A stretch of DNA of 64,000 bases, taken from positions 62,001 to 126,000 of the forward strand of contig JACRIM010000058.1 in NCBI GenBank assembly GCA_016235815.1, read 5' to 3'. A model generated the notes under the pieces. It was not told the DNA's origin. It worked only from the letters and a program-made list of their open reading frames with translations, and searched no databases. This DNA comes from Planctomycetota bacterium. GTDB taxonomy: Bacteria; Planctomycetota; Phycisphaerae; UBA1845; UTPLA1. Positions 10,887 through 31,999 of this stretch are shown here, in pieces; position 1 is the stretch's first letter; each line of letters opens with the position of its first letter. Made by a program: the position numbers and the translations under genes.

Positions 10887-12185
10887 CTACTTTTCCTCGA
10901 ACGCCGTCACCACCAGCGTGTCATTCTGCCCGCCGAACCCGAATGAATTCGAGAGGCACGTCTTGACCGTCGCTTTGCGCGGCGTGTTGGGGATGTAGTC
11001 CAGATCGCACAGCGGATCAGGCGTTTGGTAGTTGATCGTCGGCGGAAGAATCTGATCGCGAATCGCCAGCACACAAGTGATCAACTCGCATGCCCCGGCC
11101 GCCGCGATCAAATGCCCCAACATGCTTTTTACGCTGCTGACCGGCACCTTCTTGGCGTGCTCAGCAAAGAGTGTTCGAATGGCCAGCGTTTCGATCTTGT
11201 CATTCTCCGCCGTGCCCGTTCCGTGCGCCGAGATGTAGTGGATGTCGGCCGTGGTCAGGCCGGCGTCCTTTATTGCCCGGCTCATAGCAGCGATTCCGCC
11301 GCGGCCATCTTCGTGAATGTCTGTAATCCGAAACGCGTCGGCCGTCGATCCATAGCCGACGATCTCGCAGAGAATCTTCGCCCCTCGCGCTTTGGCGTGC
11401 GACAGCTCCTCAAGGATCAACATCCCCGCGCCCTCGCCGAGGACGAACCCATCGCGCGTCCGGTCGAACGGTCGCGACGCCGTGATGCACGCATCGTTGC
11501 GCGTGGAAAGCGCCGTAAGGCGATTAAACCCCGTCACGCCGAACGGGTGGATCATCGAGTGGCAGCCGCCGGAGATCATCACGTCGGCATCCCCGCGCCG
11601 AATGATCTTTGTTGCCTCGCCGATGGCCTGTGTGCTCGCCGCGCAGGCCGTGAGCGTGTTGAAGTTCGGACCTTCCACGCCGAAGAGCTGCGCAATGTGC
11701 GCCGCCGCCATGTTTGGGTCCTGCTCCGCCTCGACGACTTCGCGCAGCCGCTCGTAGGCCACTTCAGCCCAGCGTTGTGAGTTCAGATCGTTTTTCTCGT
11801 AATCCCATCCCTCGACCGCGGCCGCGGTGAAGTTGTCAAAATCCATCGGGCCTTCACCGCCACCGAGATAGACGCCGACGCGTGTCTTGTCGAGCTTGGC
11901 CGCGTTGGATAGCCCTGAATATTCCCATGCCAGCCGTGCCGCCGCGAGCGCAAAGCCCGCCTGCCGACTGACATCCTTGTGGTTCTCGTAATCGGCCCCG
12001 AGGAACTTCTTCAAGTCGAACCCTTTGACCTCGGAAGAGAATTGCGTTGGAAACGTTCCCGCGTCGAATATGGTCGTTTTGCTGATGCCACTATCGCCGC
12101 GCAGGATTGCCTGCCACGCCGTCTCTATGTCATGCCCCAGTGGAGTAATCCAGCCTATACCGGTGATGACGATTCGCCGACTCAT
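10887..12185 (-). CDS. Beta-ketoacyl-ACP synthase (FabF-like), catalytically intact
   Basis: Thiolase-fold condensing enzyme of 432 aa that extends an acyl chain with malonyl-ACP. The Cys-His-His triad is present: nucleophile in TLTACAAST (Cys181), ISAHGTGTAEND (His321) and KSMLGHLIAAAG (His358). C-terminal GFGGQND is typical. ATG 12185 overlaps the stop of the upstream ketosynthase-like gene by one base (TGATG), so the two are translationally coupled and probably form a heterodimer. It is the last gene of a five-gene operon with ACP and two dehydratases. I leave the symbol blank because this looks like a specialised rather than the housekeeping FabF. Confidence 0.92.
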   Translation of the reverse strand: MSRRIVITGIGWITPLGHDIETAWQAILRGDSGISKTTIFDAGTFPTQFSSEVKGFDLKKFLGADYENHKDVSRQAGFALAAARLAWEYSGLSNAAKLDKTRVGVYLGGGEGPMDFDNFTAAAVEGWDYEKNDLNSQRWAEVAYERLREVVEAEQDPNMAAAHIAQLFGVEGPNFNTLTACAASTQAIGEATKIIRRGDADVMISGGCHSMIHPFGVTGFNRLTALSTRNDACITASRPFDRTRDGFVLGEGAGMLILEELSHAKARGAKILCEIVGYGSTADAFRITDIHEDGRGGIAAMSRAIKDAGLTTADIHYISAHGTGTAENDKIETLAIRTLFAEHAKKVPVSSVKSMLGHLIAAAGACELITCVLAIRDQILPPTINYQTPDPLCDLDYIPNTPRKATVKTCLSNSFGFGGQNDTLVVTAFEEK

Positions 12186-13537
12186 CAGTGGACCCTCCGA
12201 AGAACCAATGCCGCTGTCTGGCCGCCCGACAACGCCGTTGCCAAACTCACCGCCACATCACCGCGCCAGTCAATCGGGTCGCCCTGAACAACTTTCAAAC
12301 CGCACGCCGGATCCATCTTGTCCGTATTGAGCGACGGCGGGATCACGCCCCGATGCATGGCCATCGCCAGCACCGCCACGTCGATCGCGCCGGAGCCGGC
12401 GCCGTTATTCCCAACCGAGCCTCGCGTGACCATCACCGGCGTACTCGCCGCACGATCACCAAGCACGGTGCGAATGGCGGCCGCCTCGGAAATGTCGTGA
12501 GCCACTGTGCCCGCGCCAAATGCATTGACCAGCCCGACCTGCGACGCTGTCGTCCCCGCGTCAGCCAGTGCCTTGCTCAATGCCAATGAAAGGCCGCGAC
12601 CGTCGGGCTGCGGCGTCAGCCAGTGCGACGCGTTAACCGCCGCACCAAACCCAACCAACTCGGCGTATATCTTTGCCCCGCGCTTTTTGGCGCGTTCGTA
12701 TTCTTCGAGAATGATCAACCCGCCGCCTTCACCAATGACAGTGCCGGATCGATCCGCATCAAACGGACGACAAGCCGTTTCGGGCGTGTCATTCGCATTC
12801 GTCACGAGTCGATTAAGCAGCGAAGGCCGCATCAGCCCCATCGGATTCAGTTTGCTTTCGGCCCCACCACAGATGCACAGATCGGCATCGCCGCGTTCAA
12901 TGGTGCGAAACGCCTCGCCAATGGCAAGGTGCGAACTCGCCTCGCCGCATGTAATGGTGTTCGAGGGTGCCTGACAGTCATGCACGATGGTGACGTGACA
13001 CGCCAGCATGTTCGGTAAGAATTTGAGCAGCCAAAGCGGCGTGAGGTTGCTCATGCCCTCGGTGCCCCACTTCTTCAGCGAAAAGCCCCGGCCCTTTGGC
13101 AACGAAGGATTCTCGGCCGCCGTGGCCAGCGCACCGGCCAATTCCGTCAAGTCCGCACAAATGAGACCCGCGCCGATGTTGGCGCCGAAACGAGTCGAAT
13201 CGATGTCGCTCGGTCCCGGGGCCTCGCCGCGTTCGACGATGCACTTGGTTTTCAGCCCGGCATCCTTCACCGCGTGATAGGCTGCCATGACCGCAAGTTC
13301 GATGTCGCGGGCCATGACTTTCGTGGCCTTGCGATAGCTCTTGGGCACGCACTCCGACACGCTCCCGCTGCGTACTTCACCCGCGATCTGCGACGTAAAG
13401 CGGCTGGCATCAAACGCCGTGATCCGGCCGATGCCGCACTTCTTTTCAACCAGCGCATCAAACGTCTCAGAAATGCCGACGCCAAGCGGCGTCGTCACGC
13501 CCAGCCCGGTGATGACGACTCGATTTTTCGTTTTCAT
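12185..13537 (-). CDS. Ketosynthase-like protein lacking the catalytic triad (chain-length-factor-like)
   Basis: A 450-aa thiolase-fold protein starting MKTKNRVVITGLGVTTPLG. Aligning it by eye with the neighbouring intact enzyme, the nucleophile position in TITCGEASSHLAIGEA falls on Glu199 instead of Cys. The first His is Phe (VNAFGAGT) and the second is Asn (SVGNNGAGSG). All three catalytic residues therefore appear replaced, as in the chain-length factors of type II polyketide synthases, where Cys becomes Gln. It likely acts as the non-catalytic partner of the downstream ketosynthase. The start at 13537 is chosen from the fold's first strand; an upstream in-frame codon at 13567 is less likely. 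Confidence 0.85.
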   Translation of the reverse strand: MKTKNRVVITGLGVTTPLGVGISETFDALVEKKCGIGRITAFDASRFTSQIAGEVRSGSVSECVPKSYRKATKVMARDIELAVMAAYHAVKDAGLKTKCIVERGEAPGPSDIDSTRFGANIGAGLICADLTELAGALATAAENPSLPKGRGFSLKKWGTEGMSNLTPLWLLKFLPNMLACHVTIVHDCQAPSNTITCGEASSHLAIGEAFRTIERGDADLCICGGAESKLNPMGLMRPSLLNRLVTNANDTPETACRPFDADRSGTVIGEGGGLIILEEYERAKKRGAKIYAELVGFGAAVNASHWLTPQPDGRGLSLALSKALADAGTTASQVGLVNAFGAGTVAHDISEAAAIRTVLGDRAASTPVMVTRGSVGNNGAGSGAIDVAVLAMAMHRGVIPPSLNTDKMDPACGLKVVQGDPIDWRGDVAVSLATALSGGQTAALVLRRVH

Positions 13538-13567
13538 ACGATGAACCCTGCCGGACCGCGGCCCCAA

Positions 13568-14047
13568 TCAGGTGCCGCGACCGGAGACATTGTAGGTGCG
13601 AAGCAGGGACTTGAACTCCTCGGTGAAGACAAAGTTCTCCTCCGGAAACTCCAGGCCGCTCAGGTTGTTGTCGATGTGCGAAAAGACGATGTCAATCTCC
13701 CCGATCGGCTTGCCCTCGCAAAAGACACGACCGACGGTGCTCGCCGCCTCGGCCGACACCTGTTCAATGGTCGCTTCATATCGAAGTTGTTCGCCGGGGC
13801 GCACTTCGCGCTCCAGTCGGGCGCGTTTCACCTTCGCAAGGATGACCTTCTCTTTGAATCCGCGCGCCTCCCCTACGAGGATGCCCGCCGTCTGGGCCAT
13901 GCCCTCGACGATCAGGCTGGCCGGCATAACCTGGTATGCCGGAAAATGGTCGTGAAGGTGCTCTTCGGCGAGGCTGACGTTCTTGATCGCCGCCGCCCGC
14001 ACGCCGGATTCGAACTCCACGAACTTGTCGATCCAAATCCAGCGCAA
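13568..14047 (-). CDS. FabZ-like 3-hydroxyacyl-ACP dehydratase, first copy
   Basis: Hot-dog fold protein of 159 aa. HDHFPAYQVMPASLIVEGM carries the catalytic pair His34 and Glu48 of the FabZ family. The start is a TTG five bases after the ACP stop; it is supported because the resulting MRWIWIDKFVEFESG lines up with MKFILIDRIKTIE of the second copy at 14466-14975. It carries a longer C-terminal tail than housekeeping FabZ. Position between ACP and the ketosynthase-like gene indicates a role in the same acyl pathway. Confidence 0.85.
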   Translation of the reverse strand: MRWIWIDKFVEFESGVRAAAIKNVSLAEEHLHDHFPAYQVMPASLIVEGMAQTAGILVGEARGFKEKVILAKVKRARLEREVRPGEQLRYEATIEQVSAEAASTVGRVFCEGKPIGEIDIVFSHIDNNLSGLEFPEENFVFTEEFKSLLRTYNVSGRGT

Positions 14048-14051
14048 AGTA

Positions 14052-14438
14052 TTAGGCCATCTTGGTGGTCACGTAATTCACGATGGTCTTCACCGTGAAG
14101 AGATTCGGCATCTTGGAAACGTCGGGGTCCTTCTCGAAATCCGAGAAGTCCGCGTGGGGCATTGCCGCCTTGAGCGTCGTAAGCCCCTTCGCCGTCATCT
14201 TGCCGCCTTCGACGTATTCCGCGTTGTTGAGAATATCATCGGGAAACAATTCGCCACGGGGAATCTTGATGGAAAACGTCTTCTCCAGCCGGAATACGAT
14301 GTCCAGAAAGTCGATGGATTCCGCGCCGAGATCCCCCGTTAACGTCGCCTCTTCCTTGATTTCGTCGTCGTCAACGCCCAGGGCGTCCACCAGCACTTCC
14401 TTGACCTTCTCAAACACTGCTTCACGACTCATCGCCAT
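14052..14438 (-). CDS. Acyl carrier protein with an extended third loop
   Basis: DLGAESIDFLDIVF contains the phosphopantetheine attachment serine, Ser41, in the ACP signature. At 128 aa it is much longer than a normal ACP of about 78 aa; roughly 45 extra residues lie between helix II/III and the last helix (LFTVKTIVNYVTTKMA). GGAGGA nine bases before the ATG fixes the start. Its place between the two dehydratases suggests it is the dedicated carrier of the operon. Confidence 0.88.
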   Translation of the reverse strand: MAMSREAVFEKVKEVLVDALGVDDDEIKEEATLTGDLGAESIDFLDIVFRLEKTFSIKIPRGELFPDDILNNAEYVEGGKMTAKGLTTLKAAMPHADFSDFEKDPDVSKMPNLFTVKTIVNYVTTKMA

Positions 14439-14465
14439 TTCGAAACTTCCTCCGTGCGCGTCACG

Positions 14466-14975
14466 TTATCGCACATGCGCCAAAACGCCGGCCGTCTTCA
14501 ATGCGGCCGGACCGCCCAGCAAGTCAAATCTCTTTCGGGCGTCGGAAATCAAACGATCATCCGTATCCGCCCACTGCGGATCTCGATCCGCAAGGTTGTA
14601 ATGGCGCAGCTTCAGCCGCGCCTTGACGATTTCTTCATCCCCACGTCGGCCCATCGCCTTAAAGTCGCTCGATGCATCGCCGATCTCGACGGCCTCGGCG
14701 ATCACTTCCATGGACCCGCCGGGGGCGACGAAACTCTTATACGTGATATTCTTCGCCTCTTCCAGCACGATCATGCTGTAGCGGAAATCCTGAGTCACGC
14801 GAACCAGCCAGCCCGCCGTTTGCAGCATGGCCTCCAACATCAAGACACCCGGCATTACCGGGAACGTTGGAAAATGGTCTGCGAGATACTCCTCAGCCAA
14901 CGAAAGCGTCTTTACGGCCGTAATCCGGTTCGGAAGCTCGATGGTCTTTATCCGGTCGATTAGGATGAACTTCAT
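14466..14975 (-). CDS. FabZ-like 3-hydroxyacyl-ACP dehydratase, second copy
   Basis: First gene of the operon, 169 aa, with the hot-dog signature ADHFPTFPVMPGVLMLEAM and catalytic His34 and Glu48, identical in position to the first copy. The tandem dehydratases could serve different chain lengths or form a heteromer. A GGAG lies about 11 bases upstream of the ATG. The roughly 230 bp upstream (14976-15206) contain no gene I can see and should hold the operon promoter. Confidence 0.87.
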   Translation of the reverse strand: MKFILIDRIKTIELPNRITAVKTLSLAEEYLADHFPTFPVMPGVLMLEAMLQTAGWLVRVTQDFRYSMIVLEEAKNITYKSFVAPGGSMEVIAEAVEIGDASSDFKAMGRRGDEEIVKARLKLRHYNLADRDPQWADTDDRLISDARKRFDLLGGPAALKTAGVLAHVR

Positions 14976-16425: not shown

Positions 16426-19400
16426 TCAGTGCGGGTTCGCAAACAACTTCAACTGGATATTGATGAACTCGAAATCATCCAAGTCCCCACGGCATGACAC
16501 CGCGCGAATCTCCAGCGTGTTCTCGCCGGCCCGTAGCAAGTCGGTCGTCAGCGGTGTCGTGAATACGCCAAAACTCCCATCCGGCGGGGATTGATCCAGT
16601 CGCGAATCAAGCAATCGCCCGTTGATCCGAATCTTGTGCGGACACTGAACCCCCTTGGCCATTAACTCAAGCTCCGCGGATTGGACCATCCCGGCCAATT
16701 GGTCCGCCGACAAGTCAAACGTCGTCACGAATGCAACGCCTTCGCTCTCGCGCTGAAACTGGCTGTTAATGGCCCCCTCAAATGCGTCGTTGCCAAGGTG
16801 ATGCACTTCCGGCGAATCTTCCAACGCCAACACTTTCTCCGTTTCGCGTTGCAACCGGAAATTGACCTTGCGCGTCCGGCCGCGAACGCTGCTTGCTTCG
16901 ACATTTCGCGAACGAGGCAGATAGCCTGATTTCGAGGCTGATACGGCGAAGTTATCCGGCAGCGCGGGCAGTTCGACTTTGAAGCGCCCGGACCAGTCGC
17001 TCACCACTTCCAAGGCGGCCTGTCCGGATACGTCGATTCGAATCATCGCATCCGCGAGCGACCGCCCCGTCTCGCCATCGATGACGCGCCCTTCCAGCCA
17101 GCCAAACACGCTCGGCGGCGACGGGACGTCTGCCGCCTCAACCGGAGCCTCAATTTCAACCGGCAGCGCAACCGCGGCGTCCGGTGTTGCCGAGAGCATG
17201 ACTGACGACGACGGAATTCCAACAGGCAAACTCGGCGACACACTCAGTCCGCCTATCTGCGTCATCGAAACAACCGACGAACCCGGTGCGCCCCCTCCCG
17301 CCGGCGCGATCATCACCGGTGAATGTGAGGTCAACGCATCGATAGCACCTTGGGTTCCTGCTGAGTTAACGTGTGCGACGGACGCGGCACTACCGATCGG
17401 CACGCCGTCCGTCACTCCACGTTCGTCTGTTGCGTCACGTACACGCGGGCCTTCGACTGGTAAACGCAACATCGTCGCGGCCTCAGCCGATTCAGAACGC
17501 ATTGCTAACGCTGGCGCGACAGTCGCCACAAGGCCCTTCGACTCAGCGATGATGCCGTCGACACCAACTACGACGCTGCCGAATCCTCTGCCGTGTCCGT
17601 CCGATTTCTCCGGTGCAACGACATCACTCCGCACATGATCGATGAGTCCGGCAATCGACGTCTCGCCCCGATGGGGCCTGGTCGCTTCACCACTTGGAGC
17701 AGACGTCGTAATGCCCACCTCATCTCCGAATGCTCGCGAAACTTCCCTATCGCTCGGCAGGCCTATGCCGCTCGAAACGTCAGTGGGCGCAAAGGCGATC
17801 TGCCCGATGCCGTGCGCCGAGGTCCGTCCAACTGGCGCATTTGAATCCGTCGGCGATTGACGCTCGATCACACTGACTTGCGCGAATTCATTCCCACCGA
17901 CTCGTGCGTCTGGTGTGAACATCGCCAGCGAGCCATTCGCGATCTCACGCGGAGGTGTCGCCGCCGCGCGAACCGGTAGGCCATGAGACGGATCTCTATC
18001 AGCGACGAAGGCATTCTCCGACTCGCTTTGCCGCTGCACCTCTCCCGGCAATTGAATCGAAATCGTCGGCCGACCAGTTTCCAGAATTCCGGTTGGAGCA
18101 GCAAGTGTGCTTCGCGCTGTTGACTCGAAAGCAGACGCGCTCACGACCACCGGGACCATCGCCTGTTTGGCGGCCGGCTCCATCGCCAGCTTCACCGGCG
18201 CCGCTTCCGCCACGACTGGAACGCGCGACTCTGCCTTGCGAACGCTCATCGTCGGAATCGTCAGCGTTGGCGCTTCCGTGATCTGGCCGCGTATCTGACC
18301 CGCCAGCGAAACTCCCTTTCCTCCCGCCAGTGTCGAAACCCGCACCGGCCCGCCTCGTCCCCGAACATACGACGCAACGGCCGTGCTCACTTCTACAACA
18401 TTGAAGACCATCATCATCACGGCGTGCGCCAGGAGTGATACGATCAAACATCGTGCTATCAGGCTCAACTTTCGCCGCTGGGCATCCCGAAACAGTGCGA
18501 GGAGAAGCAGGAAAAGCAGCAGACCCAGCACAATCCATCCAACCCGCGGCCCGATTTGCATCCACAGCGCCCGCCAGTCAATCGTCGACTGCCGCCATTC
18601 CACGTCCCGAAATACTTCGCGCGAACTGGTGCGATAGATTCGATAAACGCCGCGCGCCGCCTGCCCTTCGATCGCACGATCCGACGAGAAATGAAGCGCA
18701 AACCCACCGAGGTCCGCCGAAGGGTCCAGTTCATTCGCGGAGGTGTTGACGGCATTTCCAAGGTTCGTCGGCGCCTCGAACCTCCCGGGCAAGATGCGCG
18801 AGCGGTACAAATCAAAGCCGCCATGCCCACCCACGCGATCGGATGAAAAATAAAGAAAGTCCCCCGCTGGGCTGAACGTCGGCGATCCATCATTTCCGGG
18901 CGAGCAAAGTGAATCCAGCCGCACGGCCTTCGAGTTTGCACCGGTGCCAAGATTTACGACATACAAGTCGTAATCATGGCGGTAGATGTCCTCTCGCACC
19001 GTTGCCCGCCATGCGTCGTCCGATGGAGTGGTCTCATCCCCCCTCGGCCGATTAGAGGAAAAGCAAAGTTGCACTCCATCGCGCGACAATGCCGGGCCGT
19101 ATTCATTGAACGGCGAATTGACGGCCGTCCCCAGGTTCTCCGGCATTTGCCAGTCGCCGTCCGACCGTTTTGAAACCCAGATGTCGTATCCGCCGGCGCC
19201 GCCGGGTCGATCACTGTAGAAGTATAGCCGTGTGCCGTCCGCCGAAATCTCCGGACCCAGCTCGTCGAACTGCGAATTGACCGCGTCGACTGGTGCTGGT
19301 TCGCTCCACTTGCCTTCGACGAGCGAACTTGAATACACGTCCGCGCGCCCGCCCGGCCGGCCGCGGACGAAGTACATTGTTTGCCCATCAGCGCTCATCC

Positions 19401-19611
19401 GCGGTTCGAATGTATCGCCCTCCCCATTGATGCCCTCCGTCACCAACGTGGGCGGCTGCCACAACACCTCGCGAACGACGGCCGTGGTCGCTGCCTCGCG
19501 AATGGTGGCCGCATCCGTGAGATACGCCGTCCCTGAAGGGCGCAAAAACCACCAGCCAGCCGCCGTCCCAAGCGCGACGATGAGTAATGAGATTGCGAAA
19601 AATCGCTTCAC
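16426..19611 (-). CDS. TolB-like propeller fused to a TonB/TolA-like anchor and long linker
   Basis: A 1061-aa envelope protein. Residues 5-22 form a membrane anchor. About 55-330 holds PD40 (TolB-type) blades with repeated FxSDRxGG words. Segment 357-374 is a second membrane helix, followed by a positive loop RDAQRRK and a third helix (384-406) containing S392-LLA-H396, the SxxxH motif that TonB and TolA use to contact ExbB/ExbD or TolQ/TolR. A low-complexity Pro/Ala/Val/Ser-rich linker runs to about 880. A Cna-B/carboxypeptidase-regulatory-like domain (GRVIDGETGRSLADAMI) and a final beta domain end the protein. The predicted topology puts propeller and linker outside. It follows exbD by 12 bp, so it is likely powered by that pair. 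No classical TonB C-terminal domain is seen. Confidence 0.8.
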   Translation of the reverse strand: MKRFFAISLLIVALGTAAGWWFLRPSGTAYLTDAATIREAATTAVVREVLWQPPTLVTEGINGEGDTFEPRMSADGQTMYFVRGRPGGRADVYSSSLVEGKWSEPAPVDAVNSQFDELGPEISADGTRLYFYSDRPGGAGGYDIWVSKRSDGDWQMPENLGTAVNSPFNEYGPALSRDGVQLCFSSNRPRGDETTPSDDAWRATVREDIYRHDYDLYVVNLGTGANSKAVRLDSLCSPGNDGSPTFSPAGDFLYFSSDRVGGHGGFDLYRSRILPGRFEAPTNLGNAVNTSANELDPSADLGGFALHFSSDRAIEGQAARGVYRIYRTSSREVFRDVEWRQSTIDWRALWMQIGPRVGWIVLGLLLFLLLLALFRDAQRRKLSLIARCLIVSLLAHAVMMMVFNVVEVSTAVASYVRGRGGPVRVSTLAGGKGVSLAGQIRGQITEAPTLTIPTMSVRKAESRVPVVAEAAPVKLAMEPAAKQAMVPVVVSASAFESTARSTLAAPTGILETGRPTISIQLPGEVQRQSESENAFVADRDPSHGLPVRAAATPPREIANGSLAMFTPDARVGGNEFAQVSVIERQSPTDSNAPVGRTSAHGIGQIAFAPTDVSSGIGLPSDREVSRAFGDEVGITTSAPSGEATRPHRGETSIAGLIDHVRSDVVAPEKSDGHGRGFGSVVVGVDGIIAESKGLVATVAPALAMRSESAEAATMLRLPVEGPRVRDATDERGVTDGVPIGSAASVAHVNSAGTQGAIDALTSHSPVMIAPAGGGAPGSSVVSMTQIGGLSVSPSLPVGIPSSSVMLSATPDAAVALPVEIEAPVEAADVPSPPSVFGWLEGRVIDGETGRSLADAMIRIDVSGQAALEVVSDWSGRFKVELPALPDNFAVSASKSGYLPRSRNVEASSVRGRTRKVNFRLQRETEKVLALEDSPEVHHLGNDAFEGAINSQFQRESEGVAFVTTFDLSADQLAGMVQSAELELMAKGVQCPHKIRINGRLLDSRLDQSPPDGSFGVFTTPLTTDLLRAGENTLEIRAVSCRGDLDDFEFINIQLKLFANPH

Positions 19612-19623
19612 GACGAGTCCGCT

Positions 19624-20034
19624 CTATTCGACGACGGTGTCGAGATACGGCTCCGATACACCGCTTGCTTTACACACGTCGAGCACCCGAACGACGTTTT
19701 CATAGGCCGTGCTGCGATCGCCGCGAACCGTGACCTTCTGTTCGCCGTTCCGCTCGACGGCCTCTTTCACAATCTCGCCGACCTCCTTCAGATCGACCTT
19801 GCGCCCGCCAAGATGGCATTGCCCCGCTTGATCGACATTCAGCGTGATCTCGCGCACCGCCGCGCTGATCGGCTCCGACGACGAAGCAGCCGGAAGCGCG
19901 ATGTGCATTTCGCGCTCGACCTGGGCAATGGTCGTGGCCATGAGAAAGAAGATGAGCAGATTGAACAGCACGTCCGCCATGGGCACGAAATCGAGATGAA
20001 TCTCAGTTTCAACGCCGGAGTCTTTAAGAAGCAT
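19624..20034 (-). CDS. ExbD/TolR family proton-channel subunit
   Basis: A 136-aa protein with a short cytoplasmic start, one membrane helix containing the essential aspartate (FVPMADVLFNLLIFFLM) and a periplasmic ExbD domain (KVTVRGDRSTAYENVVRVLD). ExbD/TolR pairs with ExbB/TolQ to turn proton flow into movement of a TonB or TolA partner. It lies 11 bp after the exbB-like gene and 12 bp before the SxxxH-bearing protein, an arrangement that implies one complex. Confidence 0.92.
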   Translation of the reverse strand: MLLKDSGVETEIHLDFVPMADVLFNLLIFFLMATTIAQVEREMHIALPAASSSEPISAAVREITLNVDQAGQCHLGGRKVDLKEVGEIVKEAVERNGEQKVTVRGDRSTAYENVVRVLDVCKASGVSEPYLDTVVE

Positions 20035-20045
20035 GGGCGCGTCCT

Positions 20046-20807
20046 TTATGCAAGAGCCGGCTGGCCAACGGAAATCGGCGGGAGGTCTGGTGTCGCTTCG
20101 CGCCGCTGTGATTTGGACCGTCCATGCTCTTCATCCACAAAGTCAACGGCAACGCGATCCAACTCCACGACGAGCATGTCGATGCGCCCAAGCAGCGCGT
20201 GATAGGCAATCAACACCGGGATGGCCACGAGCAAACCCGCCGCCGTACACGTCCATGCCTCGAAGATTCCCTTCGCAAGCATTTCCGTCTTACCCAGTGC
20301 CTGCCCGGAGACGGCGATGGCCTGAAACGTCTTGATCATGCCGAAGATCGTTCCAAGCAGGCCCAGCATGGTCGAGACCTGTGGCAACGCCCCGAGGACT
20401 CGGATCCGATGTCGCAGCCGCACCGTTTCGCGCCGGCCTGCCTCTTCAACCGACCGCTCAATCATGTCGTGGCTTTCCCCGCGCTTGCGAATCGCCGCCG
20501 CAAGCACCGTCGCCGCCGGGCTTCCATCGAGGCGGCAAAACTCCAGCGCCTTTTCCCGATCACCCGCAACGGCGCTCAACCCCGCAAGCAATCCCGGGGA
20601 GATGACGCTCCGCTTTCGAAGCACGATCAGCCGTTCGACGATCACCGTCAGCGCTATCAGGGAACACACGACGATCGCAAACATCGTCGGCCCGCCCTTG
20701 GTCACGAAATCCAGGACCGAGTGCACCCTCAGGCTTGCATCCCCGACTGGCGTCGCGGCCGCCTGTCCGAGCATCAGGGCCGTCGTTTGTAGCAACATCA
20801 ACTGCAT
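20046..20807 (-). CDS. ExbB/TolQ/MotA family proton-channel subunit
   Basis: A 253-aa membrane protein. The first segment looks like a signal or anchor (MQLMLLQTTALMLGQ), followed by a helix at about 35-60 (GPTMFAIVVCSLIALTVIVE) and the conserved C-terminal pair of helices LGALPQVSTMLGLLGTIFGM and WTCTAAGLLVAIPVLIAYHA, where the TolQ-type threonines lie. AAGGAGATATGCG directly precedes the ATG at 20807, so that start is used rather than the in-frame codon at 20834. It is 27 bp downstream of the large TPR gene. Confidence 0.92.
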   Translation of the reverse strand: MQLMLLQTTALMLGQAAATPVGDASLRVHSVLDFVTKGGPTMFAIVVCSLIALTVIVERLIVLRKRSVISPGLLAGLSAVAGDREKALEFCRLDGSPAATVLAAAIRKRGESHDMIERSVEEAGRRETVRLRHRIRVLGALPQVSTMLGLLGTIFGMIKTFQAIAVSGQALGKTEMLAKGIFEAWTCTAAGLLVAIPVLIAYHALLGRIDMLVVELDRVAVDFVDEEHGRSKSQRREATPDLPPISVGQPALA

Positions 20808-20834
20808 CGCATATCTCCTTACGCGTCGCGCCAA

Positions 20835-23800
20835 CTAACCCTGCGGATGACCCGGCATCGCCACCTGCGACAATTCGCCGAGTCGTTTCACCGCCAACGC
20901 CGCCCAATTGGTTCCTTTGTACTTCTCCGCAACCGTTTCAAATTGCTTTCGCGCTTCGCCGGACTTCGACAGTTTCTCAAGGCATCGGCCGGCTTCATAC
21001 AAAGCCGCCGCGCTCCACTCGGGGTAGTCGTAGAGAATGTCAACCTTCATTAATTCTCGCACCGCCTCCTCGTACTTCTTCATGGCAAACAAACACTCGC
21101 CGGTTTGGAACTGGGCCCGCGCCGCCGTCGGCCCCTTGTGCCGTTCGACGACCGATCGATACGATGCGATCGCTTCCTCATGCCGACCAAGGTTTTCGCG
21201 CGCCCAACCGATGCCGAACGCCGCCTGATACCACGTCTCGGAGTCTGCGTTCTCCTTTAGATAATGGGCCAGCACTTCCTCGCTACGGCCCCACTGCTCG
21301 AGCCTTCCGAGGCAATCTCCCCAGCGCAGCATCGCCGACGGGCCCCACGACTGTTTGGCCCCCTCTCCGTCCAACGCCTTTTCGAAGTGCTTCGCCGCAT
21401 CTCCGAATTTGCTCACGCGGAAAAACGCCTCGGCCGCATAGAAACATGCCGACGCCGCCAACTCACTGCCGGGGAACGCAGCGGTGAATTGCGCCAGGGT
21501 CGCCGCCGCATCCGCAAAGCGATTCAATTCAAACTGCGCCAATCCAATCCGATAGGCCGCCTCCTCCGCAAGGCCCTTCGGTGCGCGATCCACTTTTTCC
21601 TTGAGCGCACGCTGCAACCTCTCGAGTTGTGCGAGCGCGGCATCAGGCCTCTTGGCCGATGATTCCAGCGCCGCCGATTCCAACATTGCGTGAAACTGCA
21701 ATTCACCGGCCGCGTCATCGTCGGACAGCAATCGATAGGCCTTTGCCGCATCTTCTGTCTTACCCGTTTCCTTCCAACACCACGCCTGTTCATACGCCAA
21801 CGTTGCCTTTGCCGACGCCGGCAGCGTCGCGACATCGACGTTTCCGGCCTCCTTCAACGCCTTGTCGTGCTGCCCCTGCCTTGCGAGTGTTACAACCAAT
21901 TGAACGCGCGCCGCGTCCGCCGATGGACGGCCATTGCTGCGCTCGATGAACGTGCGCAATACCTTTTCCGCAGCGGAGTAATCCGCCGCCGCCAGCAGTG
22001 CGAGGCCCCGCTGATACATCGCCTCCAAGCCGGCCTCGCCATCATCCGAAACTTCCGCAAGCAACAGCTCCGCCTGTTTGAAGTCGCCGCGTTGCAACGA
22101 CAACGTACCAAGGTGCTTCTTGGCAAACGGCACAAATCGCGATGTCGGCGCAATCGCCAATACCTGTTCAAATGCCTTCGCGGCCTCTTCGTTGCGCTTG
22201 AGCGACAACAAAACCTGTCCGCGCTCAAAAACTGCCTGCACGGCGTGAGGGCTTTTCTCAAACCGTCGGGCACAATCGTCGAAAACCCGAAGTGCTTCCT
22301 CAGATTTTCCTTGTCTCGCCAGGGCCAGCCCTAACTTGAGCATCGCCTCGTCCAGACTCACGTCGCCTTTTGCGAGGCGCACATGGCGTTGCAACAGTTC
22401 CTCCGCGGCCTTCCACTCGCCGCGATCGAAATAAAGATTCCCCAGCGCGATGACGGCCGGCAGCATTCTCTCGTCCGACTCGGCTCGACTCGCCGCCTCA
22501 TTCAGAAATGCCGTTGCTTCGTCTGGCTTGCCCCCGAACGCCAACGCCAGTCCCAGTCTGCACTTCGCCAACTCTGCGCGATCATCCTTTGCGTGCGTCG
22601 CTAAAAAGCTGCGAAACGCCTCCGCCGCCACGCCATACTGCTGCTGCATGAATGCGTTCTCTGCCGCCACGAACGCCACCGACGACGCTCGCGCGTGTGC
22701 TGCGTATCGCCCCGCAAACGCCTTGCACGCTTTCGTGCTTTCGTCATAGCGCCCCGACTCATGCAGCGTCACCGCCAGCAACTCCAGCGCCGTCGCGGCG
22801 AGCGGATGCTTTTCATAATGCTTTGTGAACGCCTCCAACTCGTCGAGCGCATGGTCGCGGTCCCCCGCTTTCAGAAGCGCCACAACGCGGTCATACGCCA
22901 TCTCCGCCGCAAGCCGCCCGCTCGGTACCGCCTGCATTGCCTTCCGCAAACGTTTCGCCGCCTCTTTGTAGCGCCCCTGTCGCACGTCACACTTGGCCGA
23001 CCAATACGCGATATCCTCGACCAAGTCCGCCGACCGCTCTCCCGCCTTTGCGAAGGATTCCAAAGCCTGCGCGGCATCTCCATTGGCCAACAAGACGCGT
23101 CCACGAATCACCATCCCCGACGCTGCCAACGCCCCGCCGTCGTACTTCGCCAGCATCTCGTCAATCGCTTTCGCCGCGCCGTCCAAATCCCCCTTTTCAA
23201 GGAGGGAATCGCCCATACCGAGCAATGCTTCTGCCCGTTGGGCCTCGCCATGTGCACTGAGAACCTGCTGATACAGCCTGATGGCCTCGTCAATCTTTCC
23301 CTCGCTTCGACGGCACCGCGCCAGCCCCACCATCGCCTGAGAAGCGCATGATCCCTTGCCAAAGTCCTCGATGACCTTTGCAAAATGGCCCGCCGCTGCG
23401 GCCGTGTTCCCTTGAGCCGACTCGGCCAGGCCTGCAATCAGCAGCCAACGATCCCGCTGGTTCGCCGACGGCCACCGCCGCAGACTTTCCCTACATGCCG
23501 TGCTGGCCTCAACATATTTGCCCAGTTCAAAGAGTATCTCCGCCTCTCGTACTGCCGCCTCCACGGCGAGCGCATGATCCGGATGTCGCATCACGACGGT
23601 TTGAAATCTGCCGAGCGCGTCCTCTTTTTTCCCCGCGTCCAGTCGGCACTGCCCCAGCAAATACGTGGACTCCGCCGCGAATTCAAACGACGGCAACACT
23701 GCAAGCGCCTCCAACTCTGGCACCGCCTCGGCCCCACGCTTCAATCGAACCAGACTGACCGCAAGCCCATACCGCGCCACCGCGGCCTTTTCATGCGTTG

Positions 23801-23993
23801 CGTGATCCCGCAGAAACGCCCGATACTCCTCAATGGCGGCCTCGTACATCCCGCGCTGAAGCAACCCGTTCCCGGCGTAATAGCTCTGCGCCGCCGCTGC
23901 CCCCTTCAACGCGCCGTCTCCGCCGCGCGCCGTTCCCGTTGAAGCAAGACTGAAGGTAACGCACATCAGCCCGATCAGAATCTTTCGACGCAT
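20835..23993 (-). CDS. Giant secreted tetratricopeptide repeat protein
   Basis: This 1052-aa protein starts with MRRKILIGLMCVTFSLAST, a signal peptide, and is otherwise about 25-30 TPR-like helical pairs (typical unit: Y-x-x-A-x-x-x-Y-R-x-x-x, with G-x-x-A and A-x-Y). Such a solenoid acts as a periplasmic scaffold; by context it could play the part CpoB/YbgF plays with Tol proteins. The methionine at 23993 gives the signal peptide; the upstream in-frame codon at 24035 would bury it. It is first in the operon TPR-ExbB-ExbD-SxxxH protein. Individual repeat borders were not mapped. Confidence 0.85.
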   Translation of the reverse strand: MRRKILIGLMCVTFSLASTGTARGGDGALKGAAAAQSYYAGNGLLQRGMYEAAIEEYRAFLRDHATHEKAAVARYGLAVSLVRLKRGAEAVPELEALAVLPSFEFAAESTYLLGQCRLDAGKKEDALGRFQTVVMRHPDHALAVEAAVREAEILFELGKYVEASTACRESLRRWPSANQRDRWLLIAGLAESAQGNTAAAAGHFAKVIEDFGKGSCASQAMVGLARCRRSEGKIDEAIRLYQQVLSAHGEAQRAEALLGMGDSLLEKGDLDGAAKAIDEMLAKYDGGALAASGMVIRGRVLLANGDAAQALESFAKAGERSADLVEDIAYWSAKCDVRQGRYKEAAKRLRKAMQAVPSGRLAAEMAYDRVVALLKAGDRDHALDELEAFTKHYEKHPLAATALELLAVTLHESGRYDESTKACKAFAGRYAAHARASSVAFVAAENAFMQQQYGVAAEAFRSFLATHAKDDRAELAKCRLGLALAFGGKPDEATAFLNEAASRAESDERMLPAVIALGNLYFDRGEWKAAEELLQRHVRLAKGDVSLDEAMLKLGLALARQGKSEEALRVFDDCARRFEKSPHAVQAVFERGQVLLSLKRNEEAAKAFEQVLAIAPTSRFVPFAKKHLGTLSLQRGDFKQAELLLAEVSDDGEAGLEAMYQRGLALLAAADYSAAEKVLRTFIERSNGRPSADAARVQLVVTLARQGQHDKALKEAGNVDVATLPASAKATLAYEQAWCWKETGKTEDAAKAYRLLSDDDAAGELQFHAMLESAALESSAKRPDAALAQLERLQRALKEKVDRAPKGLAEEAAYRIGLAQFELNRFADAAATLAQFTAAFPGSELAASACFYAAEAFFRVSKFGDAAKHFEKALDGEGAKQSWGPSAMLRWGDCLGRLEQWGRSEEVLAHYLKENADSETWYQAAFGIGWARENLGRHEEAIASYRSVVERHKGPTAARAQFQTGECLFAMKKYEEAVRELMKVDILYDYPEWSAAALYEAGRCLEKLSKSGEARKQFETVAEKYKGTNWAALAVKRLGELSQVAMPGHPQG

Positions 23994-24186
23994 GGACGCG
24001 CTCCCGAACCTTCCATTGCCACGGCCCGTTATCACGTCTGCCTCCTACGCACAAATCCGCAAGACGGATCGCTTAATTCTGGAAAAAGAATTTCCTCATC
24101 ACAACGCCCTCCGACTCCCAGGGTTGCCCACCACCACATGCGGCGCGCAGCCCGACCGGTGAGGCCGCCCCCCCCCCTCGCCTGCC

Positions 24187-24288: not shown

Positions 24289-25095
24289 TCAGATCACGTC
24301 GCATTGATCCGCGCGAAGCCACCCGCTCTTGCCGTCCGCCAGCTCAATGTGGAACCATTGCCCACCTTTGACGTCGGCCCGCGACTCCAAAACTCGAAAT
24401 TCCACTCCGGCAGGAAGCGGCCGGTCGAACTGAGGATCGTAATAATCGCCGTTGCCCTTCCGGAGGACGACCTTATCCGTCACCGTCACGCCCTCCAGCC
24501 GATTCGCCGCCGCAACGCGCTCCCAGCCGATGCTCGCCCCACAGCAAAGGGCCACGGTGCCGAGCGTGAGCGCCACCCACCTCAAGGCCGGTGATCGCCC
24601 CCGCACAAATAGCCTCCCCAAGAGGGCTAGCCAGGCAAGCCCATAGGCCGTCAGCCCCATGGTCATTCGGGTCCTGGGAGACGAATTGAAATGCCAGAAC
24701 AAGATTGTCTCCAGGAGGGCGCTCGTCGCCGGCTTTTCGATCGTCACGTCGCACATCCGCCGGGCGACCTCAAGATTCTTGCGGATTCGATCGTCGGTCG
24801 GGTCGAGCCGCTGGGCACGACGGTACGCCACAATGGCCCGGCCCACGTTGCCAAGCCGGACGCAGGTATTCCCGAGGTTGTAATAAAGCCCCCCGCTTCG
24901 ATAGCCATCACGAATCAGCGCGTCAAACTGTTCCAACGCCTGGCGAAATAGGCGCTGCGCCTCCGGACCATTGCTCGCCCGAATCGCCACGGCAGAGTCG
25001 CTCTTGGCGAGGGCGTCGGACAGTCGTTCCGCCGGCGATGGCGTGGCGTTTTGCCCGAAGACAAGCAACCCGATTGAAAACAATAGATGCGTCAT
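24289..25095 (-). CDS. BatE-like TPR protein with C-terminal SH3-like domain
   Basis: Last gene of the bat operon, 268 aa: signal peptide, TPR pair (GGLYYNLGNTCVRLGNVGRA, then IVAYRRAQRLDPTDDRIRKN), two membrane helices around 145-195, and a C-terminal bacterial SH3-like part ending WFHIELADGKSGWLRADQ. This is the BatE layout of the Bacteroides aerotolerance operon. Its ATG overlaps the upstream BatD stop by four bases (25092-25095), indicating coupling. Confidence 0.85.
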   Translation of the reverse strand: MTHLLFSIGLLVFGQNATPSPAERLSDALAKSDSAVAIRASNGPEAQRLFRQALEQFDALIRDGYRSGGLYYNLGNTCVRLGNVGRAIVAYRRAQRLDPTDDRIRKNLEVARRMCDVTIEKPATSALLETILFWHFNSSPRTRMTMGLTAYGLAWLALLGRLFVRGRSPALRWVALTLGTVALCCGASIGWERVAAANRLEGVTVTDKVVLRKGNGDYYDPQFDRPLPAGVEFRVLESRADVKGGQWFHIELADGKSGWLRADQCDVI

Positions 25096-26903
25096 GAAAG
25101 CCGTTCCTTCTCCAACGCATCGATGAGCCGCTGCCCTTCCGCCGCGACGTCTGTTCCCGCGGATCCGCCGCCATATTGGGCTTGCTCGACCAAATCCAAC
25201 AATGTGTCCACCTGTTCAACAAGTGCCCGCGCGATCTGCCGAGACTCCAGTAGCCGTCGGGCATCGGCTCGCGTCATCCCCCCGGCCGGCACACCACATC
25301 GATCCGCGACATACCCCACGACCGCGGCCCGAATCCCACCCGGAGTTGGGTTCGCCAAGGCGGCTTTCGCCCTGCGATAGGCATGGGTCCGTCGTCGATA
25401 GGTGTCGTCCGAGCGAAATCGCTCAGTACGCTGCCTCACAAACCAGACGCCCGCATAGACCAACGGAAACCCCGCGAGCATCCCCCACGTCGCCGCGCCG
25501 ATGCTTGCCGCCTGCGACGCCAGCAGGCGCGACACATTCGTCTCATTCGCGATGAGTCCTTCGCTCGATTCCGTCAATGGAGCGAGCACGTTCTGCGCCT
25601 GAATCGGCGTCCCGGCCGGGTTCGCCAACGCGAGCTTCTGCCCCGCCCGTACACGAATAGGAATCGGCTCGCTCAGGGACTGCTCATACTTCTCCGTCTT
25701 CGGGTTGAAAAAGCTGATTGGCACCGGCGGGATTTTCGTCACGTCATCCCGCAGCGGCCGGATCGTCTGCGAGAAAACCTTGGTCCCGCCCTCAAGACTT
25801 CCGGCAGGCGAGTCCCCCGAAATCTCGAAATCTTTCGTCAGCGCCTCCACCTGTTCCAGCTTTGGCGCGCTAAGTCGTTCCAGCGGTCCTGACCCGCGAA
25901 TGAAAAGCGTCAACGTCACGGGGTCGCCGACGCCCACATCCATCGGTTTCGCCGCGGCCGAAATCGAATACGTGCCCACGGCACCATTAAAATCCGGCGG
26001 GCGACCATTCAGGGGAAGCGGCAGGACCTGCAATTCCGGCAGTGCGGGCCGCTGAAGCACTTTCCGTTCCTGCTCAAGGTACATCTGCCCGAACACATTC
26101 GACGACAACTGAATCGGATAGCGATAAGCAATCACGACGGAGCCAAGATCCAGCGGCCCGGGCTTCGGGGGAAACACAGTGGCGTCAAGGCTGTACACCC
26201 AATAGTCGCTTCCTCTTCCCTGCTCGCCTTTACGAGTCGTCTCTCCCCAGCGTGGATTACGATCTTCGGAAAAGACGCCCATGCTCGAACGATTCCGATC
26301 GAGAAGCGACCACGCGCTGTTCACATCCATTTCGTAATTGCCCTGGCGGAACTTGCGCACCATGATTTCCAGCGTCAACTCAATCTTCTGTCCCACATAA
26401 ACCTTCGGTGTCTCCTCATCCCGTCGAAAGACACGGCAGATCAGGTCCGGCGTATCGGAAGGTCGCTTACCGTTCACAACGATGGGCTGACTCGACATCA
26501 CCTGTTCGCCGTCATTGACTTTGAATCGAGGAATCGTGAGCCGCCCGGTACGAAGCGCTTTGGCCTCAAACGTGTAACTGTAGGTGACGGTGGTACTTTC
26601 GCGCCCGTTGATGTTCTGGTACATCTGATTGGTCGCGGGATTCGCCACGGTCTGATCGAGCGAAATCTCAAAGTCCGCCGACTTCTCCGGCACCGGCATC
26701 GACGCCGTCCTGGGATTCGCGACCTCGACAACCACCGAAATTGTGTCCCCCACCTCCACCGATGTTGCATTGGCCCGTGCCGTGACCGACTGTGCGGACG
26801 CTGACGCCGCAATACAAAGCGTCATGATGCACGCGCGCAACACGGTCGTGCCGGCCCAGGCCCGGCGAGCAACCACGTGCGACTGTCCTGCAACGATTCG
26901 CAT
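25092..26903 (-). CDS. BatD-like oxygen-tolerance family membrane protein
   Basis: A 603-aa protein with signal peptide (ALA-rich ending ASASAQS), several beta-sandwich domains containing VEVGDTISVVVEV and VGVGDPVTLTLFIRGSG (the BatD repeat), a membrane helix around 450-470 (ATWGMLAGFPLVYAGVW) and a cytoplasmic helical tail. ATG 26903 overlaps the BatC stop by one base (TGATG), which is why it is preferred over in-frame TTG/GTG codons two residues earlier. BatD is thought to hold the other Bat proteins at the inner membrane. Confidence 0.87.
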   Translation of the reverse strand: MRIVAGQSHVVARRAWAGTTVLRACIMTLCIAASASAQSVTARANATSVEVGDTISVVVEVANPRTASMPVPEKSADFEISLDQTVANPATNQMYQNINGRESTTVTYSYTFEAKALRTGRLTIPRFKVNDGEQVMSSQPIVVNGKRPSDTPDLICRVFRRDEETPKVYVGQKIELTLEIMVRKFRQGNYEMDVNSAWSLLDRNRSSMGVFSEDRNPRWGETTRKGEQGRGSDYWVYSLDATVFPPKPGPLDLGSVVIAYRYPIQLSSNVFGQMYLEQERKVLQRPALPELQVLPLPLNGRPPDFNGAVGTYSISAAAKPMDVGVGDPVTLTLFIRGSGPLERLSAPKLEQVEALTKDFEISGDSPAGSLEGGTKVFSQTIRPLRDDVTKIPPVPISFFNPKTEKYEQSLSEPIPIRVRAGQKLALANPAGTPIQAQNVLAPLTESSEGLIANETNVSRLLASQAASIGAATWGMLAGFPLVYAGVWFVRQRTERFRSDDTYRRRTHAYRRAKAALANPTPGGIRAAVVGYVADRCGVPAGGMTRADARRLLESRQIARALVEQVDTLLDLVEQAQYGGGSAGTDVAAEGQRLIDALEKERLS

Positions 26904-27976
26904 CACCAATCCTTCGACACCGGAATCTTCCCACGTAGCCGCATCATCTTCGCCCGCTTCGCCTCGCGTCGCGCCTTTTCTGCATCGCGGGCCTCCTGAA
27001 GCATCGGCTCAACTTCCTCTTGCTTCGACTGCTCGGCATTTTGTTCGTCCGGCTTTGGTTCTTCGCCTTCCTTCTGTTCGCCCTCCTGCGAATCCGACTG
27101 GCCCTGCTGATCCCCCTTTTTCTGCTTATCCCCCTTCTGATCTTTTTTCTGATCGCCTTTTTGATCTTGCTGTTGCTCCTCGTCGCCCTTGTCCCCTTCG
27201 TCGCCCTTTTCTTGGTCCGGTTGTGAGCTTGGTTGCGATGACGGCTGCTGCTTTTCATCGGGTTGCGATGACGGCTCGTCCTTCGGCTGCGATGTGGGTT
27301 GCGAACTGGGGTTCTTCTTCTCTTCCTGCTTCTCCTTCAGTTTCTTTTCAAAGTAGGCCCGCAAGCGTTCGGCTTGTTCCAGATTCTTGCGAGGATCATC
27401 ATCCTTCGCGTTCAGCGTCTGTGCTTCCTTATAGAAGTTGATCGCTTTCCCGATCGAATTGATCGCCTCTTCCGGCTTGTCGCGCCCGGCAATCGCCGCC
27501 TCATGCGCGCTGCGGCCCAGGTTGTACTTGACCTTCGCCTCCATGTCCGGCCGATCCGGCTTCAACGCATCTTGCAGTGCCTTCTGAGCATCGTCGTACT
27601 TCCCAAGTCGATACAGCGCGATTCCCCGGTTGTATGCCACCTCCGGCGATTCCGGGCGAACCCTCTTTGCTTCGTCATACGCCGCAAGCGCATCCTGATA
27701 CTTTCCCGCCGCAAGTGCCTCGTTTCCGCGCTGCATGAACTCCGCCACTTGGCGCGACGTCACGTCATCAGCTCGTGTGGTTGCCGTCACGCCAAGAGTA
27801 ATTGCAAACGTAATGCAGAAGATTCCGCACCATGTAGTCCTCTCAGCCCCGACCGGGCGACGGACCGTAGCCACGGGCCCAAGCCAGTGGATGTCTGAGA
27901 GAATCACGCGCAGCCGCGATGGGGCGACGGAGCAATCAACAAGCAAATGAGGATTGCAATCCAAATGACCCTTCAA
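26903..27976 (-). CDS. BatC-like TPR protein with highly charged Gln/Lys/Pro-rich tail
   Basis: TPR units (ALAAGKYQDALAAYDEAKRV; EVAYNRGIALYRLGKYDDAQ) are followed from about residue 220 by a low-complexity run of SSQP, QKGD and KEGEE repeats, then a basic coiled-coil-like end. BatC proteins share this layout. The start is TTG 27976, overlapping the BatB stop and preceded by GGGAGGTGG; it leaves about 50 residues before a hydrophobic segment (GIFCITFAITLGVTATTRA) that looks like a signal peptide, so an internal start is possible. Confidence 0.8.
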   Translation of the reverse strand: MKGHLDCNPHLLVDCSVAPSRLRVILSDIHWLGPVATVRRPVGAERTTWCGIFCITFAITLGVTATTRADDVTSRQVAEFMQRGNEALAAGKYQDALAAYDEAKRVRPESPEVAYNRGIALYRLGKYDDAQKALQDALKPDRPDMEAKVKYNLGRSAHEAAIAGRDKPEEAINSIGKAINFYKEAQTLNAKDDDPRKNLEQAERLRAYFEKKLKEKQEEKKNPSSQPTSQPKDEPSSQPDEKQQPSSQPSSQPDQEKGDEGDKGDEEQQQDQKGDQKKDQKGDKQKKGDQQGQSDSQEGEQKEGEEPKPDEQNAEQSKQEEVEPMLQEARDAEKARREAKRAKMMRLRGKIPVSKDW

Positions 27977-28998
27977 GATGCCACCTCCCGCCGCTCTCGC
28001 ACCAAACTCTCAATCACCAACAACACCAACGCCGCCGACGCCGGCCATGCAAACTGCGCATACTGTCGCGCGATGCGTTTCTCCTTCGTGGTACGCTCCT
28101 CGCGCTGCGCCAGTTTATCCGTGTAAAGCCAATCCAACGTCCGCTGGTTCGCCCCGACCTGCCCGCTCGGGTGATACTCGCCGCCTCCCGCCATCGCGAT
28201 CGCCAAAAGCTGATCCGGATTCATCTTCGACCACACCTGTTGATCGTCGAACACCACATAAGACTTGCCGCCGTCCTTGCTCACCGGGATCAGCGAACCA
28301 CGCTGCGAATCACCAATCCCGATCGTATAGACCTGCATCCCGAGGTCCCGAGCCTTTTTCGCATCCTCTTCCGGCTTGCCACCCAGTGTGTCCTCGCCGT
28401 CCGTCATCACGATGATCGCGCGCTGCTTGTTCGCAGAACCGCTGAATCCCTTCACCGCCGCCTTGATCGCCTCCGCGAGATTTGTGCCGCCCATCGCCGC
28501 GCTGTGTACGCCGACATCGTCCAGCGTCATTCGATAGAATTCGTAATCATCCGTCAGCGGGCAGACCAAGTCGGCCTTGCCGGCGAAGGCGATCAATCCG
28601 ATGGACCCGCCGCCCAATCGATCCAGCAGCCGCTTGATGTCATCCTTCGCCCGATCGAGCCGCGACATCCCCGCGTCCTCGGCCAACATGCTTCGCGACA
28701 CGTCGAGACAGATCATCAAGTCCAGCCGCTTCTGGATCGCATCCTCATAATACGTCCCCCATCGTGGACCAATCATGGCCAGCACAATGGCCGTCATCGC
28801 CAGCAGCCGCAATACCGCTTTTGCATATTGCCTCGGGAAGCTAATCGCCGGGGCGATCGCCCCCAATACCGCTGCCGACGCAAACGCCGCCAACGCCTGC
28901 CGCTTCCGCGCGAACCCGTAGACGAACAGCAACCCGCACGCCACAACGGCGAGCAGCCACTTGAGTTGATTCACGTTGTCAATCTTTAGTTCGTCCAC
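27973..28998 (-). CDS. BatB-like von Willebrand factor A domain membrane protein
   Basis: A 341-aa protein with membrane helices near 15-30, 40-52 and 62-76, a periplasm-side VWA domain with complete MIDAS (D99-x-S101-x-S103 in LDVSRSM, GGTNL, MTDGED), and a C-terminal helix (FAWPASAALVLLVIESLV). BatA/BatB pairs interact with BatD and are linked to MoxR ATPases. Start GTG 28998 lies 15 bp after the BatA gene. Metal-binding residues are all in place. Confidence 0.9.
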   Translation of the reverse strand: MDELKIDNVNQLKWLLAVVACGLLFVYGFARKRQALAAFASAAVLGAIAPAISFPRQYAKAVLRLLAMTAIVLAMIGPRWGTYYEDAIQKRLDLMICLDVSRSMLAEDAGMSRLDRAKDDIKRLLDRLGGGSIGLIAFAGKADLVCPLTDDYEFYRMTLDDVGVHSAAMGGTNLAEAIKAAVKGFSGSANKQRAIIVMTDGEDTLGGKPEEDAKKARDLGMQVYTIGIGDSQRGSLIPVSKDGGKSYVVFDDQQVWSKMNPDQLLAIAMAGGGEYHPSGQVGANQRTLDWLYTDKLAQREERTTKEKRIARQYAQFAWPASAALVLLVIESLVRERREVAS

Positions 28999-29013
28999 AA
29001 CAGTTTCCGTCCG

Positions 29014-31996: not shown

Positions 31997-31999
31997 GGC

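Follow-up and report, generated by a model that had tools for sequence, protein, structure and literature searches.

How could force from an envelope motor driven by the proton motive force (PMF) be passed on in a bacterium without a recognisable TonB or TolB? This question is raised by four genes on the minus strand (16426-24035) of a 64,000-nucleotide stretch of Planctomycetota DNA (contig JACRIM010000058.1, positions 62,001 to 126,000; hereafter the window). The source genome, presumably that of an uncultured Phycisphaerae member, is 4.58 Mb in 60 contigs and 95% complete. The four genes form one tight cluster and encode a TPR protein, ExbB, ExbD, and a 1061-residue propeller protein, named PROP in this study. 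Judged from conservation, PROP is very probably a force transducer of the PMF-driven ExbB/ExbD motor, similar to TonB and TolA but made of other parts. It is read in this way because its SxxxH helix, its D-box strand, the motor residues, and the gene order are conserved together.

A sequence-only reading of the window had placed ExbB and ExbD directly upstream of PROP, behind the TPR gene. The open reading frames (ORFs) lie in these places, in the order TPR, ExbB, ExbD, and PROP with intergenic gaps of 0-12 bp, and Pfam agrees (four PD40 stretches in PROP, 1e-30; ExbD, 2e-25; MotA_ExbB, 1e-25; many TPRs). The length of 1052 residues given there for the TPR protein holds from a later start codon; from the first start codon the protein has 1066 residues. 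The features are as follows.

20835..24035, minus strand: TPR protein, 1066 residues, probable signal peptide, presumed periplasmic (Pfam; partner kept in all 28 loci)
20046..20834, minus strand: ExbB/TolQ subunit; S58, T162, T197, and P206 correspond to E. coli ExbB S34, T148, T181, and P190; L62 replaces W38 (Pfam; alignments)
19624..20034, minus strand: ExbD/TolR subunit; D21 corresponds to E. coli ExbD D25, L131 to L132 (Pfam; alignments)
16426..19611, minus strand: PROP, 1061 residues, with propeller, SxxxH, carboxypeptidase-regulatory domain (CRD), and jelly roll; proposed force transducer (ORF; Pfam; homologues)
19546..19611, minus strand: N-terminal anchor helix, residues 1-22 (AlphaFold2 model; hydrophobic segments)
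18592..19536, minus strand: PD40 beta-propeller, residues 26-340, periplasmic, probably five-bladed (Pfam; model; fold searches)
18475..18576, minus strand: second transmembrane helix, residues 346-379, periplasm to cytoplasm (model; hydrophobic segments)
18361..18462, minus strand: third transmembrane helix with SxxxH, residues 384-417, cytoplasm to periplasm (model; hydrophobic segments; alignment)
18424..18438, minus strand: predicted motor-docking motif S392-xxx-H396 (invariant in 66/66; same register as E. coli TonB S16/H20 and TolA S18/H22)
18325..18345, minus strand: D-box-like strand VRVSTLA, residues 423-429, 27 residues past H396 (pattern of PMC10907165; conserved in 65/66 homologues)
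17128..18324, minus strand: variable linker, residues 430-828 (low conservation; 317-1067 residues long in homologues)
16840..17094, minus strand: CRD (transthyretin-like), residues 840-924 (weak Pfam PF13715; VIA Z 13.0 to carboxypeptidase D)
16429..16839, minus strand: C-terminal jelly roll, CBM35/36/BcsB-CBD-like, residues 925-1061 (predicted local distance difference test score (pLDDT) 88.7; VIA Z 9-10.8; invariant HHLG, NSxFQ, and DDFEF motifs)

Conservation of the motor-coupling features

Two collections of relatives were used. An order-level sample comprised 61 genomes, 31 of which encode PROP homologues that span the whole conserved region. GTDB genomes were scanned as well; this second set overlaps with the order-level one and yielded 57 full-length PROP copies, nearly all in Phycisphaerae or Planctomycetota metagenome-assembled genomes. 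Residue conservation was scored over 66 distinct homologues for PROP and over 29 family members for ExbB and ExbD. The order TPR-ExbB-ExbD-PROP was searched for in other Planctomycetota, and all 28 order-level relatives whose contigs reach far enough keep it, as do most full-length loci of the GTDB collection.

S392 and H396 are identical in all 66 homologues, while most adjacent helix positions vary, and no homologue lacking SxxxH or the third helix was found among them; the motif proposed in the sequence-only reading is thus borne out by the alignment. A chance occurrence was rejected, given this invariance against a background of four SxxxH motifs in 668 hydrophobic segments, counted on the fetched loci. 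The full SHLS motif (Leu at +7 and Ser at +11 after His) is not present in PROP, which has F403 and E407 in the window; these two positions are less conserved in Ton (PMC12215075). C388 (window 18448-18450), which precedes the Ser of SxxxH by four residues, is likewise identical in the 66 homologues of this main set, and is Tyr in a divergent copy (L184).

TonB binds ExbD via the D-box, a short beta-strand shortly past the membrane helix, with the pattern hydrophobic-polar-hydrophobic-polar-hydrophobic-hydrophobic-polar (PMC10907165). In E. coli MG1655, ISVTMVT starts 25 residues past H20 of TonB, and IDAVMVD starts 28 residues past H22 of TolA; in the same comparison the PROP family has 26-27 residues. 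A D-box core (IQVALxS-like strands) starts 25-28 residues past the His in 65 of the 66 PROP homologues, and 4.7% of linker windows match it as a control. A stricter pattern, tried first, matched 48/66 at a control rate of 15%. The core pattern was picked after the same sequences had been viewed, so that 65/66 is a descriptive figure and not a blind test.

The motor subunits were aligned with ExbB/TolQ and ExbD/TolR of E. coli MG1655. The proton-pathway residues ExbB T162 and T197 and ExbD D21 (E. coli T148, T181, and D25) are invariant in 29/29. In the cryo-EM structure, ExbB S34, W38, and P190 belong to the network of contacts between ExbB and TonB Ser16/His20 (PMC12215075); the equivalents of S34 and P190 (S58 and P206) are also invariant in 29/29. 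ExbD L132 is needed for D-box binding, and its equivalent is Leu in 28 of the 29. Motor coupling of PROP is therefore strongly inferred, at the level of sequence.

Architecture of PROP and comparison with known systems

The hydrophobic segments of PROP (residues 1-19, 356-374, and 388-406) match the helices of an AlphaFold2 model (2-22, 346-379, and 384-417). The model of residues 1-440, built with 28 homologues, has a mean pLDDT of 80.9 and contains the anchor helix, the propeller, and two further helices. The loop between helices two and three, RDAQRRKLS, is basic, which is consistent with a cytoplasmic location. Segments and model together uphold the proposed topology of anchor, propeller, helix back to the cytoplasm, basic loop, and SxxxH helix.

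The propeller is modelled as about five three-stranded repeats. TolB is its top Foldseek match; with VIA-align, five-bladed GH43/GH62-type propellers score Z 18-20 against 18 for TolB, which is within about 2 Z units of the best. A PDB sequence search with PROP gave zero matches. TolB_N (PF04052) was found neither in PROP by Pfam nor in the source genome. On these models, "TolB-like" would describe the fold family of the propeller and not a function. The suggestion that TolB and TonB functions sit in one chain is thus supported as far as a PD40 propeller is joined to an invariant SxxxH helix, but the propeller is probably five-bladed and has no TolB_N.

The C-terminal 233 residues are well modelled (pLDDT 88.7) as a CRD followed by a jelly roll, rather than the Cna-B-like end alone that had been described; the absence of a TonB C-terminal domain was confirmed by the Pfam scan. 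The CRD aligns with carboxypeptidase D (VIA Z 13.0, root-mean-square deviation 1.4 over 80 residues); its CarbopepD_reg_2 match is weak (9e-4, under the cut-off). The jelly roll resembles CBM35/36 modules and the carbohydrate-binding domain of BcsB (VIA Z 9-10.8), and the shared fold suggests that it may bind sugar. Some secreted proteins, large or lipoprotein-like (L134, L144, L145, L130, and L137; Desulfonema magnum, Desulfobacterales, and others), also contain the CRD/jelly-roll module but no SxxxH. In long PROP homologues (L086 6125-8665, L096, L082, and others), an alpha/alpha-toroid domain that resembles squalene-hopene cyclase and has a CxxCGG-type motif is inserted between the linker and the CRD.

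PROP resembles TonB-ExbB-ExbD in the SxxxH register, the D-box distance, and the ExbB/ExbD proton-pathway residues. It differs in having no TonB_C and in the propeller and two extra helices that precede the motor helix, and its ExbB has Leu in place of Trp38. The Tol-Pal system shares the motor type, SxxxH in TolA, the PD40 propeller in TolB, and a nearby TPR protein (CpoB). Unlike Tol-Pal, the PROP cluster has no TolB N-domain and no TolA or Pal gene, and its probably five-bladed propeller sits in the transducer chain. The likeness of the TPR protein to CpoB is one of shared TPRs; a CpoB-specific family, marked in CpoB/YbgF by a coiled-coil domain next to the TPRs, is not among the matches listed (25 of 32 Pfam matches).

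SHLS-bearing vWA proteins beside TPR-tolQ-tolR-tolR genes were predicted in 2025 to be PMF-driven force transducers in Planctomycetota-Verrucomicrobiota-Chlamydiota (PVC) bacteria (PMC12204202). They share with PROP the SxxxH helix, the linker, a non-TonB tip, and the order TPR-tolQ-tolR(s)-transducer. They have a vWA tip and two tolR-like genes, whereas the PROP locus has one ExbD, and PROP itself carries a propeller ahead of the motor helix and ends in a CRD/jelly-roll tip; no VWA domain was found in PROP by Pfam. A second motor locus in the source genome (L064 3684-9059, contig G000:C11) contains TPR, two ExbD-like, and ExbB genes and a 348-residue protein with SxxxH and vWA, and matches the published type. 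PROP is best filed next to these vWA transducers as the nearest known kind, differing by its tip and the added propeller. By its sequence, it would work like TonB/TolA yet belong to neither family. No description of the PROP architecture was found among the open-licence PubMed Central papers searched. The term "undescribed machine" may thus apply to this architecture, but not to motor-driven transducers in general that combine SxxxH with a non-TonB tip and follow a TPR gene, since these had already been predicted in PVC bacteria.

Several observations weigh against PROP as a motor-driven transducer. ExbB W38 of the TonB contact is replaced by Leu in 28/29 and by Met in 1/29. The VRVSTLA strand of the window fits the D-box pattern at 4/5 first positions and departs at the fifth residue (VRVST). 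PROP was modelled as two separate pieces. Among 61 relatives, 60 have no TolB_N, with or without PROP; lack of Tol therefore does not show replacement, and the missing TolB_N, a feature of the order regardless of PROP, was not used as proof that PROP replaces Tol-Pal. Finally, no ExbB/ExbD was found in the flanks examined of short forms of ~500-560 residues (L091, L094, L098, L100, and L180-L182; Schlesneria and other Planctomycetota). The same short forms lack the propeller and keep the hairpin, SxxxH, and the C-terminal module, and this retention was counted in support of the transducer reading. Two of them have a D-box-like strand (IQLTL/VQLTL) 29 residues past the His.

The regulator pair, neighbouring genes, and rival explanations

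Of the 27 other relatives for which upstream sequence exists, 25 have a Peptidase_M56 (BlaR1-type) gene on the same strand within 333 bp upstream of the TPR gene, and a BlaI-type repressor gene usually comes before it. One further relative has the M56 gene 3.9 kb away. In most relatives, the BlaI/BlaR1 (M56) pair and the four genes are a six-gene operon. The pair was not found upstream of TPR in the cluster of the window or in relative G008. The single strong M56 gene of the source genome is found on a different contig (G000:C21), next to a BlaI gene, and its product is 33-36% identical to the operon M56 proteins across much of its length; it looks as if the operon had split. Since a BlaI repressor and a BlaR1-like M56 protease head the operon in most relatives, the operon is probably switched on by stress to the envelope or wall.

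The same arrangement allows PROP to be seen as an energised sensor, in which a motor-tensioned PROP probes the wall and BlaR1/BlaI reads the result, force serving for sensing and not for work. The same-strand BlaI-M56 pair at the head of the operon and the small number of M56 genes per genome speak for it; however, the pair may merely regulate the operon, and it is unlinked in the source genome and in G008. We regard this explanation as unlikely.

An equal, low probability is given to a type IX-like or gliding-like machine, in which the motor would drive secretion or surface movement via a hub of propeller, CRD, and TPR, comparable to PorLM with PorE. PorE of the type IX secretion system contains TPR, a five-bladed propeller, and a CRD in this order (PMC7192894). 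The pairing of propeller and CRD, the TPR, and a PMF motor (PorLM in the case of PorE) are thus common to both; the PROP propeller scores best against five-bladed folds, and the few plasmid-borne PROP relatives are mostly Bacteroidota proteins matching the propeller, some of them annotated as OmpA family. In contrast, PorE is an outer-membrane lipoprotein with OmpA_C and its TPR in the same chain, whereas PROP is anchored in the inner membrane, bears SxxxH, ends in a jelly roll without OmpA_C, and has its TPR on a separate gene. No translocon genes were seen in the conserved neighbourhood.

Far less probable is that SxxxH is a structural feature of the membrane hairpin and that PROP is no more than a common type of anchored propeller protein whose gene is co-transcribed with those of ExbBD. 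The motif is short and lies in a hydrophobic helix, and the propeller-less forms occur without adjacent ExbBD, but the invariance of SxxxH in 66/66, the matching D-box spacing, and the fixed gene order argue otherwise. Slightly less probable still is a Ton-like importer, PROP being the TonB of this lineage with a replaced tip for energising outer-membrane uptake: SxxxH, D-box, and ExbB/ExbD are present, but the genome, at 95% completeness, yielded neither TonB_C, TonB_2, nor a TonB-dependent receptor plug, and no receptor gene was seen in the conserved neighbourhood.

A Bat operon lies upstream of the cluster (window 24289-32992; MoxR, DUF58, BatA/B-like VWA, and BatC/D/E-like genes). It was rejected as a conserved partner (MoxR...BatE), as it adjoins the cluster in the window only and was not found beside the four genes in 28 relatives. 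Several seeming conserved neighbours proved to be antisense shadow ORFs and were left out. Ketosynthase-like, acyl-carrier-protein-like, and dehydratase-like genes (translations judged by eye) lie next to the cluster at window 10887-14975, a block that resembles fatty-acid or aryl-polyene-type synthesis. A promoter and terminator consensus scan gave no signal above shuffles.

Proposed working of the PROP machine

As a force transducer, PROP would work as follows. Its SxxxH helix would dock on the rim of the ExbB pentamer, with S392/H396 against ExbB S58. Proton flow through D21/T162/T197 would move ExbD, which would capture the D-box strand immediately outside the membrane and pull or rotate the 400-residue linker. 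The linker would pass the force to the CRD/jelly-roll tip, and the tip may grip a target that is probably a glycan, whether at the cell wall, at the outer membrane, or at the surface. Two helices would hold the propeller at the membrane; together with the TPR protein, the propeller may form a periplasmic docking hub.

The weakest step is the task of the machine. The best guess, and only a tentative one, is a Tol-Pal-like role in envelope maintenance, since the source genome yielded no TolB_N, TonB_C, or receptor plug; three OmpA-type domains are encoded elsewhere in this genome. Whether the cluster represents a distinct class of PMF-driven trans-envelope machines of Phycisphaerae, with a BlaI/BlaR1-controlled six-gene operon, a one-chain transducer (propeller hub, TonB-type helix with D-box, and glycan-binding tip), and a Tol-Pal-like or new wall-remodelling task, we consider evenly balanced.

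If the transducer reading is true, the motor interface of TonB/TolA (SxxxH and D-box) would be a portable module fused to varied tips; in PROP it would be joined to a propeller and a CBM-like end. PROP is a concrete candidate for carrying force across the envelope in bacteria without recognisable TonB or TolB, and the BlaI/BlaR1 link, if true, would tie the motor to the sensing of wall stress.

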